From Dawidia soli (GTDB taxonomy: Bacteria; Bacteroidota; Bacteroidia; Cytophagales; Cyclobacteriaceae), in contig NZ_JAHESC010000015.1 of NCBI RefSeq assembly GCF_018598185.1, forward strand, positions 62,001 through 126,000: a stretch of DNA of 64,000 bases. Reading direction: 5' to 3'. Shown here in pieces: positions 33,416 to 38,637 of the stretch (position 1 is its first letter; every line of letters starts with the position of its first letter). Under the pieces are notes generated by a model that saw nothing but the letters and a program-made list of their open reading frames with translations, was not told where the DNA came from and searched no databases. The position numbers were made by a program, and so were the translations under genes.

Positions 33416-33670
33416 GGTGAAAAAGATCGCGGCAGGTTCCGGCAGCGGTGTTATCGTGAGATGTTGTGACGCGTGATGTGAGCGGTGTTGGCGTGTATAA
33501 GCATGCTAGGTCGTGATGTTTTAAGGAAATGATACCCGTACTTTTTCGGGTAATATTTTCAAGAGACTCGTTGCATACGATTGCAATGCGCTAATAACCG
33601 TTAGTTCGTGCAAAAATCATAAATTTTCTGTTGGAAACAAGGCGTGTGTTTCATTATTTCGGGATATCAA
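33416..33670. other. Divergent control region between thioesterase and thr operon
   Basis: 255 bases without a protein gene. Contains a 6-bp hairpin TACCCG / CGGGTA (33533-33538, 33547-33552) and an AT-rich stretch. TAAATTTT (33620-33627) is a one-mismatch -7 box pointing to thrA, but without a matching -33 element; I cannot place the thr promoter with confidence. Confidence 0.4.
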
Positions 33671-33733
33671 ATGACACTGGCGAAACCATATATACTTTCC
33701 TCCGGAAGCTTTTTCACAGAAGCTTCTATCGCC

Positions 33734-33796
33734 ATGGCTACCGTTGTGACAATGATTATTACCATCATTATTACCATTACCATCATTACGGGGTAA
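33734..33796 (+). CDS. thrL: Threonine operon leader peptide (thrL-like)
   Basis: 20 codons: after Met-Ala the peptide is a run of Thr, Ile and Val ending ITIITG; 6 of 20 residues are Thr and 8 are Ile. The stop TAA is 108 bases before the thrA start. This is the same design as the E. coli thrL leader (Thr/Ile run), which is set before the same gene, thrA. Stalling on scarce Thr-tRNA or Ile-tRNA would change RNA folding downstream. The frame is also open from an ATG at 33671, giving a 41-codon version; the Thr/Ile run is at the end in both cases. Confidence 0.85.
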   Translation: MATVVTMIITIIITITIITG

Positions 33797-33864
33797 CCCG
33801 TATGCAGCTATACCTCCGCCCCCATTAGGATTACGTCCACCTCCAGGAAGTGCTACGCGTAATC
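33787..33864 (+). promoter_or_regulatory. Attenuator structures of the thr operon
   Basis: Hairpin A: TACGGG / CCCGTA (33787-33792, 33797-33802), with the leader stop codon in its loop. Hairpin B: GATTACG / CGTAATC (33829-33835, 33858-33864) with an inner CAC / GTG, followed by GAAAAAATAAATC. The last leader codons contain ATTACG (33785-33790), identical to the core of the left arm of B, so the right arm CGTAAT could pair with either. No T run follows B, so the mechanism may differ from a classic terminator. Confidence 0.55.
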
Positions 33865-33904: not shown

Positions 33905-36352
33905 ATGAAAATATTGAAGTTCGGTGGCTCATCGGTCGCCACCCCCGCGCGGATACAGTCGGTCATCGAGATCGTCAAGCCGTACCTGCGCGAAGACGTA
34001 GCCGTCGTGTTTTCCGCCTTTGGCGGTGTGACCGACGTGCTGATCCAGATCAGCCGGCTGGCCCTCGAAGGCAACCTGGAATACAAAGCCACCCTGGCCG
34101 ACATTGAACGCCGTCACCTCGACGCCGTACGGGCACTGGTAGGTGTGCAAAAGCAAAGCAGCATCCTGGCGCAGGTCAAGTTTACGATCAACGAACTGGA
34201 AGACGTACTGCACGGTGTGTACCTCGTAAAAGAACGCACACCCCGCACCCTCGACTACATCATGAGCTTTGGCGAACGCCTGTCGGCCTATATCATTGCC
34301 GAAGCCTTTAAAGACAACGGTGTCGCTGCTGAGTTCCTCGACGCCCGCCGCGTGGTGCGCACCGATGCAAACTTTGGATACGCCAAGGTAGACTTCGACA
34401 CCACCAACACACAGATCCGCGAGCACTTCAGCCGCCAGCAGGCGCTGCAGATCATTACCGGTTTTATCGGCACCAGCGAGACGGGAGAAACGACCACGCT
34501 CGGCCGCAGTGGCTCGGATTATACCGCGGCGATCTTTGCCGGTGCCCTGCAAGCATCGGACCTCGAGATCTGGACCGACGTGGACGGTATGATGACTGCC
34601 GACCCGCGCCTGGTGAAGAAGGCGTTTACCGTGCCGCAGATGAGCTATGAAGAAGCGATGGAGCTTTCGCACTTTGGCGCCAAAGTGATCTTCCCGGCCA
34701 CCATGCAGCCCGCGATGGTCAACCGTATCCCCATCTGGATCAAGAATACATTCAACCCTACCTTTCAGGGCACCGTCATTCACGCCGAGTCGAAGAACGG
34801 CAAGGTGATCAAGGGTATCTCGTCCATGAATGCCATCAGCCTGCTCAGCGTACAGGGCAGTGGCCTGCTGGGCGTGGTGGGTGCTTCGGCGCGGTTGTTC
34901 GCCACCCTGGCCCGCGAGCGCGTCAACGTGATCCTCATCAGCCAGGCATCGTCCGAGCACTCTATCTGTCTGGCGATCGAAAGCCAGTATACCCGTCAGG
35001 CCAAGACGGCCATTGAAAAAGAATTTCAATACGAAATACGCAACGAAGAGATCGACGAAGTACACGTAGAGACAGACCTCTCGGTGATCGCTGTCGTCGG
35101 CGATAATATGAAACAAAGTCCAGGTACCAGCGGGCGCATGTTTAGCGCGCTTGGTAAAAACGGTGTAAATGTCATGGCTATAGCACAAGGCTCTTCCGAG
35201 CGTAATATCTCCGCCGTTGTACGGCAAGCCGACGTAGCCAAGGCGCTGAACGCCTTGCACGAGGCCTTCTTCCTGTCCGATCGCAAGCTGCTCAACGTGT
35301 TCCTGGTGGGCACCGGCCTGATCGGCAAAGCCCTCATCAACATGGTGCGCGAGCAATTCAACAAGCTCGCCGAAGAGAACCTGCTGGAGGTAAACATCGT
35401 GGCGATCGCCAACAGCCGCAAGATGCTTTTCCAGGAAGCGGGACTGCCGCTGGCCACTTGCCTGGACGAGAACGAGGCGAAGGGCGAGGCCATGCACATG
35501 GAGAAGTTCGTGGAGCACATGGTATCGCTCAATCTGCCCAACAGTATTTTTGTAGATTGTACTTCCAGCGAAGAGGTGACGTCGTTCTACGAGGCGATCC
35601 TGTCGGCCAGCATCTCGGTCGTTACACCCAACAAGAAAGCCAACTCAGCTTCGCTGGAAAAATACAAGTTGCTGAAACATACCGCCTTCCGTCGTGGTGT
35701 GAAGTTCCTGTACGAAACCAACGTAGGCGCGGGCCTGCCGGTGATAAATACCCTGAACGATCTGCTGCTGAGCGGTGACAAGGTCATCAGCATCGAAGGG
35801 GTGCTGAGCGGCACGTTGAACTTTATCTTCAGCTCGTATACCGCGGGTAAGAAATTCAGCGACGTAGTCAAAGAAGCCAAGGCCAAGGGCTATACCGAAC
35901 CCGATCCGCGCGACGACCTGAGCGGCATGGATGTGGCGCGCAAGATCCTGATCCTTTCCCGCGAAGCCGGCCTGCCGTATGAGCTGAGCGATATTACCGT
36001 AGAGAACCTCGTGCCGGCCGACTGCCGCGAGCAAACTTCGGTGGATGCCTTCTTTACGGCTTTGGAGAAACACGACAGCGCGTTTGAAAAGCTGCTGGCA
36101 GAGGCCACCGCGCGGCAGGAGAAACTGCGCTATATGGCGGTGTTGAAGGACGGTAAAGTGGCGGTGTCGCTGGGTACGGTGAACGATAAACATCCGTTCT
36201 ACTCCCTGTCGGGCAGCGACAATATCATCCTGCTGACGACCGAGCGTTACCACGAGCGCCCCATGGTCATTCGCGGGCCGGGCGCCGGCGCTGCCGTAAC
36301 CGCCGCCGGTGTCTTTGCCGACGTGATCCGCATCGGGCACTATGCGCGCTAA
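33905..36352 (+). CDS. thrA: Bifunctional aspartokinase / homoserine dehydrogenase I
   Basis: 815 aa. Aspartokinase domain first (1-290; KILKFGGSSVATPARI, SFGERLSAYIIAEAF, GRSGSDYTAAIFA), two ACT domains (about 300-455; VNVILISQASSEHSICLAIE, GVNVMAIAQGSSERNISAVV), then homoserine dehydrogenase (about 465-815; VFLVGTGLIGKALI, GTLNFIFSSY, DPRDDLSGMDVARKILILSREAG). It catalyses the first and third steps from aspartate to threonine. The ACT domains predict feedback inhibition by threonine. First gene of thrABC, behind the thrL-like leader. Confidence 0.97.
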   Translation: MKILKFGGSSVATPARIQSVIEIVKPYLREDVAVVFSAFGGVTDVLIQISRLALEGNLEYKATLADIERRHLDAVRALVGVQKQSSILAQVKFTINELEDVLHGVYLVKERTPRTLDYIMSFGERLSAYIIAEAFKDNGVAAEFLDARRVVRTDANFGYAKVDFDTTNTQIREHFSRQQALQIITGFIGTSETGETTTLGRSGSDYTAAIFAGALQASDLEIWTDVDGMMTADPRLVKKAFTVPQMSYEEAMELSHFGAKVIFPATMQPAMVNRIPIWIKNTFNPTFQGTVIHAESKNGKVIKGISSMNAISLLSVQGSGLLGVVGASARLFATLARERVNVILISQASSEHSICLAIESQYTRQAKTAIEKEFQYEIRNEEIDEVHVETDLSVIAVVGDNMKQSPGTSGRMFSALGKNGVNVMAIAQGSSERNISAVVRQADVAKALNALHEAFFLSDRKLLNVFLVGTGLIGKALINMVREQFNKLAEENLLEVNIVAIANSRKMLFQEAGLPLATCLDENEAKGEAMHMEKFVEHMVSLNLPNSIFVDCTSSEEVTSFYEAILSASISVVTPNKKANSASLEKYKLLKHTAFRRGVKFLYETNVGAGLPVINTLNDLLLSGDKVISIEGVLSGTLNFIFSSYTAGKKFSDVVKEAKAKGYTEPDPRDDLSGMDVARKILILSREAGLPYELSDITVENLVPADCREQTSVDAFFTALEKHDSAFEKLLAEATARQEKLRYMAVLKDGKVAVSLGTVNDKHPFYSLSGSDNIILLTTERYHERPMVIRGPGAGAAVTAAGVFADVIRIGHYAR

Positions 36353-36391: not shown

Positions 36392-37318
36392 ATGAAATCT
36401 GTAAGAGCATCAGCCCCAGCAACGGTAGCAAACGTTTCGTGCGGCTTTGATATATTCGGCTTTGCTGTAGCCTCGCCTGCCGACGAGGTGGTGGTGACCC
36501 TGACGGACAAGCCGGGCGTCGTCATTCGCGAGATCGTGGGCGACGGCGGCCGCCTGCCGCTGGACGCATCGCGCAACACTTCCAGTGTTGCCGTCATTGA
36601 ATACCTGAAGGCTATCAAGAGCGAGCAGGGCGCGGAGATCACCCTGTATAAACACCTGGCCCTGGGCAGTGGCATGGGCTCGAGTGCCGCCAGCTCCGTG
36701 GCCGCGCTCGTGGCCATCAACCACCTGCACGGCGAACCGCTGTCGCGTAAGGAGCTGTTGCCGTTTGCCATGGAGTCCGAGCGCATCGCCTGCGGTTCGG
36801 CGCATGCCGACAACGTGGCGCCTTCGCTGCTGGGCGGGTTTGTCCTGATCCGCGGGTACGACCCGCTGGATGTGACGAGCATTCCCACACCCGAAGGTTT
36901 ATACGCCACGCTGGTACATCCGCACCTGGAGCTGAAGACTGAAGACTCACGCCGTGTGTTGAAGGCTTCGATACCCTTAAAAGATGCTATCACGCAGTGG
37001 GGCAACATCGCCGGCCTGGTGGTGGGGTTAATGAAACCGGACTACGGGCTGATCGGCCGGTCGTTGAAGGACGTCGTGGCCGAACCGATCCGTTCGGTAT
37101 TGATCCCGGGCTTTGACCGTATCAAGGAAGAGGCGGTGAAGGCCGGCGCATTGGGCTGCGGTATATCCGGTTCCGGGCCGACGATCTTTGCACTGTCGAC
37201 CGACGAGGCCACTGCGCAACGGGTAGGGCAGGCCATGCAGGCTCAATTTACCGACCTGAAATTGAAGAGTGACGTGTATGTGTCGGAGATCAACAACGCC
37301 GGCGCCAAAATATTATAA
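36392..37318 (+). CDS. thrB: Homoserine kinase (GHMP family)
   Basis: 308 aa. The GHMP ATP-binding motif is LALGSGMGSSAASSVAAL, and GCGISGSGPTIFAL is the C-terminal motif; the start RASAPATVANVSCGFDIFGFA is characteristic of ThrB. It phosphorylates homoserine. 39 bases after thrA and 14 bases before thrC, so one transcript. Confidence 0.97.
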   Translation: MKSVRASAPATVANVSCGFDIFGFAVASPADEVVVTLTDKPGVVIREIVGDGGRLPLDASRNTSSVAVIEYLKAIKSEQGAEITLYKHLALGSGMGSSAASSVAALVAINHLHGEPLSRKELLPFAMESERIACGSAHADNVAPSLLGGFVLIRGYDPLDVTSIPTPEGLYATLVHPHLELKTEDSRRVLKASIPLKDAITQWGNIAGLVVGLMKPDYGLIGRSLKDVVAEPIRSVLIPGFDRIKEEAVKAGALGCGISGSGPTIFALSTDEATAQRVGQAMQAQFTDLKLKSDVYVSEINNAGAKIL

Positions 37319-37332
37319 GCCTATACCAGACG

Positions 37333-38637
37333 ATGAAATTCTACAGTACCAACAACAGCGCGCTGCAAGTCGACCTGCGCGACGCCGTAACGCAGGGCCT
37401 GGCGCCGGACAACGGTCTCTATATGCCTGAGCGTATTCCCGCGTTGCCGGCCGCGTTCTTTGATAAATTACCGTCTATGTCGTTTGCCGACATTGCCTAT
37501 GCGGTGGCTCACAACCTGCTGGGCGACGACGTGCCTGCCGATGAGCTGCGGCGCATCGTAGACCATACCATTCAGTTTGATGCCCCGGTGGTGGAGGTAG
37601 ACGACCACCTTTACGCGCTGGAGCTTTTCCACGGCCCCACGCTGGCCTTTAAAGATTTTGGCGCACGCTTTATGTCGCAGTTGCTGGGCTACTTTGCCCG
37701 CAGCCAGAAGCAGGAAATCGTTATACTCGTCGCCACCTCCGGCGATACGGGCAGTGCCGTGGCCAACGGCTTCCTGGGTGTACAAGGCACACGCGTGATC
37801 GTACTATACCCTTCCGGTAAAGTAAGCGACATCCAGGAGAAGCAATTCACGACCCTGGGTCAAAACATTACGGCCCTGGAAGTGGACGGAACGTTTGACG
37901 ACTGCCAGCGCCTGGTAAAACAAGCCTTCCTCGACGACGACCTGAAGAAAAAATACTTCCTGACATCGGCGAACTCGATCAACATCGCGCGGCTGATACC
38001 GCAGTCATTTTATTATTTCTATGCCTACGCGCGCGTGCAGCATCTCGGCCGGCCGGTGGTGTTCTCCGTACCGAGCGGCAACTTCGGCAACATTACCGGG
38101 GGCTTACTGGCGCGGGCCATGGGCTTGCCTATTCACGCTTTTGTAGCGACGACCAATGTTAACGACGTGGTGCCGGAGTATCTCAAAACACAACTGTTCA
38201 CACCACGCCCGTCGAAACAGACCATTAGCAATGCGATGGACGTCGGCAATCCCAGCAACTTCCCGCGCATGCTGGAGCTCCTGGGGCAGGACTACAAAGC
38301 ATTGTCTGCGCTGATCAAAGGCTACGCCTTCACCGACGACGAGACCCGCGCCGCCATGCGCCTGATAAAAGCCTCGTCGGGCTATGTCATGGATCCACAC
38401 GGTGCCATCGGCTACCTGGGCTTACAGCATTACCTGGATGAAACGACCGAAGATGTAACGGGCATTTTCCTGGAGACCGCGCACCCGGCCAAGTTCAAGG
38501 AGGTAGTAGACGACACATTGGAGGAGCCTATTGCCATACCGCCGGCGTTGCAGAAGTTCCTGCAACTGTCGAAACACACCGTGCCGATGAAATCGGACTT
38601 CGCGTCGTTTAAGACTTACCTGCAGGGAAATCTCTAG
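37333..38637 (+). CDS. thrC: Threonine synthase
   Basis: 434 aa. FHGPTLAFKDFGARFMSQLL has the PLP lysine (Lys in FKDFG); ATSGDTGSAVANGFLG and PSGNFGNITGGLLA bind phosphate. It makes threonine from O-phosphohomoserine. Last gene of the operon. Its 3' end overlaps the 3' end of the opposite gtrA by 29 bases, with no terminator between the two. Confidence 0.97.
   Translation: MKFYSTNNSALQVDLRDAVTQGLAPDNGLYMPERIPALPAAFFDKLPSMSFADIAYAVAHNLLGDDVPADELRRIVDHTIQFDAPVVEVDDHLYALELFHGPTLAFKDFGARFMSQLLGYFARSQKQEIVILVATSGDTGSAVANGFLGVQGTRVIVLYPSGKVSDIQEKQFTTLGQNITALEVDGTFDDCQRLVKQAFLDDDLKKKYFLTSANSINIARLIPQSFYYFYAYARVQHLGRPVVFSVPSGNFGNITGGLLARAMGLPIHAFVATTNVNDVVPEYLKTQLFTPRPSKQTISNAMDVGNPSNFPRMLELLGQDYKALSALIKGYAFTDDETRAAMRLIKASSGYVMDPHGAIGYLGLQHYLDETTEDVTGIFLETAHPAKFKEVVDDTLEEPIAIPPALQKFLQLSKHTVPMKSDFASFKTYLQGNL

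Follow-up and report, generated by a model that had tools for sequence, protein, structure and literature searches.

The thrABC operon of Dawidia soli is probably governed by a ribosome-controlled threonine (and isoleucine) attenuator whose output is non-canonical and possibly Rho-dependent. The sensor of this attenuator, a short leader peptide rich in Thr and Ile, is well supported, and the output step is one that we infer. We hold the Thr/Ile-sensing leader with high confidence. That a hairpin at the stop codon of the leader (P1) and a CATAT-like motif behind it form the output platform seems to us rather likely, and Rho is a tentative choice for the terminating factor.

Layout of the leader and the thr operon

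In the window, by which we mean the whole stretch of 64,000 nucleotides that was analysed, positions 33671-33796 of the plus strand hold a frame for a 41-residue peptide, MTLAKPYILSSGSFFTEASIAMATVVTMIITIIITITIITG, which ends in MATVVTMIITIIITITIITG and the stop codon TAA. Among its last 20 residues, six are Thr and eight are Ile. The regulatory codon run, ATVVTMIITIIITITIITG and the stop, occupies 33737-33796 (plus strand) and has counterparts in the Thr/Ile-rich ends of relatives. A gap of 108 nt separates the stop from the start of thrA at 33905. On the same strand follow thrA, a fused aspartate kinase/homoserine dehydrogenase I and the presumed regulated gene (33905-36352; NCBIfam NF006959, 1049.9 bits), thrB, for homoserine kinase (36392-37318; TIGR00191, 221.9 bits), and thrC, for threonine synthase (37333-38637; TIGR00260, 301.1 bits). 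The original prediction had described a frame of Thr, Ile and Val codons with 6 Thr and 8 Ile in 20, a TAA stop and about 108 bases up to thrA, in front of a Bacteroidota thrABC operon; every one of these elements was found, and NCBIfam models matched all three genes.

We annotate 33671-33796 as a thrL-like leader peptide gene on the basis of the frame, its relatives, shuffles and gap counts. Two starts, at 33671 and 33734, had been considered possible. Both ATGs are present, and comparison with relatives favours the first. ATG 33671 lies 8 nt behind a conserved TTTCATTATTTCGG block (33649-33662, plus strand), which recurs in L002-L006, L008 and L009 and is thus shared with Ohtaekwangia, Chryseolinea and relatives, while the in-frame ATG at 33734 is common only to the nearest relative, L003, among the leaders first aligned. 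The block is a candidate promoter -7 region; a sigma-70 scan found no promoter. Among the loci fetched, the closest ThrA is that of Parachryseolinea silvisoli (97% identity), followed by those of Ohtaekwangia, Chryseosolibacter and Chryseolinea. Upstream of the leader lies a divergent acyl-CoA thioesterase-like gene, whose score is under the cut-off of the model. Between this gene and the leader, at 33533-33552, there is a terminator-like hairpin on both strands (TACCCG...CGGGTA).

Conservation of the leader and coding constraint

Relatives were searched for Thr/Ile-rich frames upstream of thrA, as had been proposed with the original prediction. In a non-random set that contains many close relatives and only part of the listed thrA matches, 78 of 217 distinct thrA upstream regions contained a frame in which 7 or more of 10 residues are Thr or Ile, as compared with 1 of 1085 dinucleotide shuffles. 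For frames with at least 8 Thr/Ile in 10 residues, the numbers were 59 of 217 and 0 of 1085. The set comprised 217 distinct regions at the first count and 269 at the last.

The prediction hinged on the run and its frame being conserved in close relatives. There the peptide is kept, and the frame is protected from gaps: in 33 hand-chosen pairs of close relatives, the final 81 nt of coding sequence ahead of the stop contain 1 gap (1 pair), while the 81 nt behind the hairpin contain 21 (17 pairs). Four pairs (L004/L006 versus L005/L009) stand outside this count, with a 9-nt gap and gaps of 1-2 nt that were taken as alignment noise. We used the count on the 33 close pairs since counts with divergent pairs are noisy; it supersedes an earlier count in a fixed 90-nt window, which gave 0 gaps in the frame and in which in-frame indels can be hidden. 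Substitutions at the first, second and third codon positions of the leader frame numbered 43, 69 and 92 in the 33 close pairs. Judged by these sequence comparisons, the thr leader ORF is under coding constraint.

Ninety-four distinct leaders combine a Thr/Ile-rich end with a final Thr-Gly-stop. The search was anchored on Thr-Gly-stop and so dictates positions -1 and -2; position -3 is Ile in 90% of these leaders, and position -5 is Thr in 84%. The codons most used are ACC, ATT and ACT. The N-terminal part varies among relatives, while the Thr/Ile end is constant. The comparisons support conservation of a Thr/Ile leader within the family to which the window belongs, and of differing versions across other families in the class. 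At L076-L111, which belong to Telluribacter, Runella, Arcicella, Dyadobacter, Spirosoma and others, including further Cytophagales, none of the 36 loci reaches 7 Thr/Ile in 10 before thrA, and the leader therefore appears to be absent or lost there.

Other residues also occur in the run. Phe codons lie within or before it (FFTTTITG) in L011-L014, L130-L143, L150, L156-L161 and others, and Phe makes up 19-23% at positions -7 and -8 (n = 94 leaders); the aspartate pathway does not yield Phe. Met codons join the Thr/Ile run in a few relatives.

A hairpin at the stop codon and a CATAT-like motif

The coding end Thr-Gly-stop is simultaneously part of hairpin P1 (33788-33801, plus strand; ACGGG-GTAA-CCCGT, -8.4 kcal/mol), which straddles the stop TAA at 33794-33796. 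Its pairing is kept in relatives through sequence changes, as in ACGGGC TGA GCCCGT and ACGGGT TAA TTCCCGT. In distant relatives the arms are swapped (ACCCC...GGGGT), and the peptides end in, for example, TPSRG, TPLG or TTTP. Behind P1, at a distance of 7-11 nt, stands CATAT or TATAT, often followed by NGCC. A relaxed form of this motif was found at that distance in 61 of the 78 leaders with a CCCG(T/A) arm and was missing in the other 17; the arm itself was missing in 16 of the 94 leaders. The window carries the relaxed form TATACC (33809-33814, plus strand), 7 nt behind P1; the strict form is not present there, and the window lies outside the 72 strict cases described next.

Under strict definitions, P1 and CATAT together with a Thr/Ile peptide ending at the hairpin were present in 72 of 269 upstreams, while 1345 shuffles gave no such case. 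When the peptide condition was dropped, the counts were 80/269 and 11/1345, with 2/269 on the other strand; nine upstreams have P1/CATAT and no frame that reaches 6 Thr/Ile. The spacer from P1 to CATAT measures 8-10 nt in 66 of the 72 strict cases, 50 of which have the G-rich arm first (G-first) and 22 the C-rich arm (C-first). In a subgroup with the stop codon TAG (L042-L044, L047-L049, L054, L057 and L058), CTCCC-GACATAY or CGCCC-ACATAT-like motifs sometimes occur twice behind the stop, as if the G-run had two rival partners.

No intrinsic terminator found at the thr leader of the window, terminators present at other leaders

A terminator scan and our own terminator test found no intrinsic terminator between the leader and thrA in the window. 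Likewise, none was found behind the stop in the 94 Thr-Gly-stop leaders (0/94, a count that leaves out L093, a chance match) or behind P1 in the strict P1/CATAT cases (0/72). An earlier version of the test, which covered only leaders with at least 7 Thr/Ile (56 of 96 Thr-Gly-stop ends), gave one match, L269. If P1 itself is counted as the hairpin, 9 of the 94 leaders pass the test owing to a T-rich stretch directly behind it; the window fails.

In the same genome, the same test detected terminators behind the ilv, his and trp leader peptides, each of which is followed by a hairpin of 12-13 bp and a U-tract, while the thr leader has none. The ilv leader, MMKDSKITERSLSLTGLINGTVLVIVVILVVVKPAGAMVI, precedes an ilvE-like gene (named by eye) and ilvD and has a 12-bp terminator with a U-tract (L244, 155-278, contig C38). 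The his leader, MINTITIGFHHHHHVLHTVRGMAY, has five successive His codons and a strong terminator before hisG (L246, minus strand, contig C34). The trp leader, MKKFNNIAWWWHISKHDM, has three Trp codons, and eight T stand behind its 13-bp terminator (L250, minus strand, contig C67); the gene behind it is trpE-like, as named by domain and context. For the ilv and his leaders, pairing between the leader end and an arm of the terminator is possible (-14.7 and -14.8 kcal/mol). These three leaders show that the organism does not generally do without terminators.

The same holds for thr leaders as a group: by the strict test, a terminator is present in 11 of the 133 thrA upstreams whose leader frame reaches 6 Thr/Ile or more (L021, L027, L070, L179, L261, L264, L265, L267, L269, L271 and L277). 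This test misses some terminators that are visible by eye (L206, L209 and L262). By eye, several of the terminator-type leaders have peptide ends such as GGR, whose codons seem able to pair with a terminator arm. When both strict tests are applied to the 133 upstreams, 63 have P1/CATAT only, 11 have a terminator only, 0 have both and 59 have neither; 41 of the last are Thr-Gly ends that miss the strict hairpin or motif test. This mutual exclusion suggests that P1/CATAT does the job of a terminator or replaces it.

Other RNA structure in the leader region

A C-rich segment (33814-33823, plus strand) can pair with GGGGT of P1 as an alternative to P1. The pairing reaches -10.0 kcal/mol with an inner stem and -6.4 kcal/mol without it, versus -8.4 kcal/mol for P1, and the complementarity is general, not pair-specific. 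A second hairpin, P2 (33828-33864, plus strand; GATTACG...CGTAATC), is followed by GAAAAAAT and has no U-tract; it has modest support in relatives, and a P2 stands behind P1 in many Thr-Gly-stop leaders. In 15 chosen sequences, 86% of the P1+P2 paired cells were paired, as against at most 60% for slid controls. Shuffles matched P1+P2 in 16 of 500 cases on the covariation score and in 35 of 500 on the percentage, and the counts of pair types were unremarkable. Because shuffles reach the scores and the pair types do not stand out, we regard P2 as a likely, rather than a proven, hairpin.

Two candidate roles gained no support. P2 is unlikely to act as an intrinsic terminator, as the 8 nt behind it consist of 34% T and 37% A (62 sequences). 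The second was a switch between pairings C:D and D:E, with C:D complementarity of -2.55 within species versus -2.56 between species. The corresponding values are -8.01 and -7.9 for A:C, and -8.26 and -3.34 for D:E, a test biased towards P2, which had been picked by folding.

The leader in the window folds no better than its shuffles (z -0.48), and the folding energy behind P1 is not below that of controls (mean z -0.69, n = 94, versus -0.93, n = 100). Base use behind P1 shows a weak and unspecific bias, with C at 0.262 and G at 0.146, versus 0.199 and 0.179 in control upstreams of 83 thrA genes that have no frame above 4 Thr/Ile in 10. Rfam has a family Thr_leader. Our Rfam search, read down to E = 10, returned no thr leader family; its only two matches, with E of 1 and 5.4, are unrelated and score well below their gathering thresholds. 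To see whether this RNA also stands in front of genes other than thrA, the model R1 was run over 59 genomes; it had 47 matches listed at E of at most 1, of which 14 lie at thrA, including the best 9. The other 33 (E 0.003 to 0.91) are no more than expected by chance over 59 genomes, and eight of the loci away from thrA, viewed by their frames, showed nothing leader-like.

Proposed mechanism and alternative explanations

We propose that the Thr/Ile codons directly before P1 are read by the leader ribosome, which would make the sensor one of the classical kind. A shortage of charged Thr- or Ile-tRNA would make the ribosome stall in the run upstream of P1. A ribosome stalled early in the run would leave P1 free, while one at the stop codon would cover it. 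Either P1 or the competing pairing between its G-run and the C-rich segment would form on leaving the RNA polymerase and would hold the polymerase near CATAT in a state that continues into thrA. When threonine is plentiful, the ribosome at the stop would sit on P1, the G-poor, C-rich RNA behind the stop would be exposed, and transcription would end before thrA, most likely by Rho, which the genome encodes. The direction of the switch (starved = on) is assumed from biology: a biosynthetic operon is expected to be expressed when its product runs short, and P1 formation should therefore accompany expression. That P1 acts while the polymerase stands near CATAT is suggested by the almost constant spacer.

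P1/CATAT may further be an undescribed RNA output platform, present in several families of the class, that needs no classical intrinsic terminator; on this broader reading our opinion is almost evenly divided. Its hairpin would sit where a Thr/Ile leader has its stop codon, with a CAUAUNGCC-like site following after 8-10 nt; opened by the ribosome or left shut, it would decide the fate of the polymerase. The position of P1 is constant even where G and C have changed sides between its arms, and in other lineages a terminator takes this place.

Several other explanations were weighed. P1 and CATAT could be a pause signal only, giving the ribosome time to catch up in the manner of the 1:2 hairpin in the E. 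coli trp leader, with the real terminator or control not recognised. A hairpin that straddles or adjoins the stop codon at a near-fixed distance from a conserved motif would fit a pause; the spacing is 8-10 nt in 66/72 cases. However, no further conserved structure that could terminate was seen, and P2 was not evident by eye in part of the C-first relatives, with a small second hairpin drawable in others. We consider a mere pause unlikely.

It is also improbable that P1/CATAT is an unusual intrinsic terminator without a full U-tract, whose hairpin is prevented by a ribosome stalled over the Thr run (again starved = on). Such a role would agree with the mutual exclusion from classical terminators by the strict tests, with a spacer that would suit the distance from a hairpin to the active site of the polymerase, and with the 9/94 leaders that are T-rich enough behind P1 to pass the terminator test. 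Yet 85/94 leaders, the one in the window included, have no such T-rich stretch, and the stem in the window has only 5 bp and -8.4 kcal/mol with its loop. Moreover, a ribosome at the stop would block P1 as well, and the operon would then be on when threonine is plentiful.

The leader might instead control mRNA processing, with P1 and the AU-rich CATAT marking a nuclease site to which the ribosome sets access. The hairpin does adjoin an AU-rich motif, but nothing direct points to cleavage, for which a near-fixed spacer is not obviously needed; we rate this as distinctly improbable. A classical attenuator of the E. coli type, with a terminator that has decayed or was missed by the scans, is very improbable: relatives elsewhere do combine a Thr/Ile leader with a U-tract terminator (11/133) and the strict test misses some, but none of the 94 Thr-Gly-stop leaders has one behind the stop, and the same test detected those of three other leaders in the same genome. 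That the Thr/Ile run is a functionless low-complexity repeat of ATTACC-like units is hardly credible, for although the DNA is repetitive, the peptide is conserved in frame while codons and N-termini vary, and the shuffle control and the protection from indels argue for function.

Comparison with known systems

Leader-peptide attenuation is a textbook device of Proteobacteria, and for thr it is known from E. coli. The sensor described here is of the same kind as that of E. coli thr, in another phylum; the sensor is known, and the proposed output platform would be new. As in E. coli, a Thr/Ile-rich leader precedes fused thrA, thrB and thrC, and the ribosome presumably stalls on Thr and Ile codons. 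Unlike the E. coli attenuator, the window leader showed no intrinsic terminator in our tests, ends in another peptide sequence, has no Rfam match, and possesses a hairpin across the stop codon and a CATAT-like motif. The claim of the original prediction that the layout is that of the E. coli thr attenuator is not supported, given that no terminator and no Rfam thr leader match were found and that a hairpin lies at the stop. The Ile-Thr-Gly end, which it had equated with that of E. coli, belongs to P1 in the window; E. coli ThrL ends in ...ITTGNGAG, and Thr-Gly is not its end.

The ilv, his and trp leaders of the same genome and the thr leaders of other families share with the window leader a peptide upstream of the operon that is rich in the product amino acid, but they are followed by long hairpins with U-tracts, which the window thr leader lacks. 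The pause hairpins of the enterobacterial trp and his leaders likewise lie at a set distance from the site of the polymerase; there, however, an antiterminator and a terminator follow, and the sequence is unrelated to P1.

A parallel for the output may be the mgtA leader of Salmonella, where the translation speed of a leader ORF (MgtL) exposes a Rho site (PMC6335274). In both cases the speed of the leader ORF would set the access of Rho, and no intrinsic terminator is needed; unlike thr, mgtA is tied in that account to Mg2+ via codons such as Pro (PMC6335274), and at thr the part of Rho is a proposal. Traits of the mgtA type in the window are that no intrinsic terminator was found and that Rho is encoded. 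We know of no P1/CATAT element at mgtA.

The authors of a 2010 survey were aware of no leader peptide system that had been demonstrated outside Proteobacteria and Actinobacteria, with the exception of ermC, until they described their own cases in Firmicutes (PMC2965389). As described there, the survey of premature terminators looked for Rho-independent ones and would therefore miss leaders of the present form (PMC2965389). A transcriptome of B. thetaiotaomicron contains leader-like short frames in 5' UTRs, and the word threonine is absent from the part of the paper available (PMC7366714). Our literature search, in which sources were available in part, found no account of a Bacteroidota thr leader, and an older prediction is possible. 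Vitreschak et al. (2004) are said to have mentioned candidate attenuators in Bacteroidetes/Chlorobi.

One Bacteroidota genome has four likely leader peptide systems, ilv, his and trp with terminators and thr without. Since one thr sensor is joined to two mutually exclusive RNA outputs across the class, the thr leader is a natural test case for the way in which a ribosome on a leader can end transcription where no intrinsic terminator is present. At one further locus before thrA, L275, the leader ends in MVTTTR, and behind its stop hairpin, CCCGGTAACCGGG, come a long hairpin from AGCCCG and a T-run; by eye, this locus is an apparent intermediate between the P1/CATAT and the terminator types of output.
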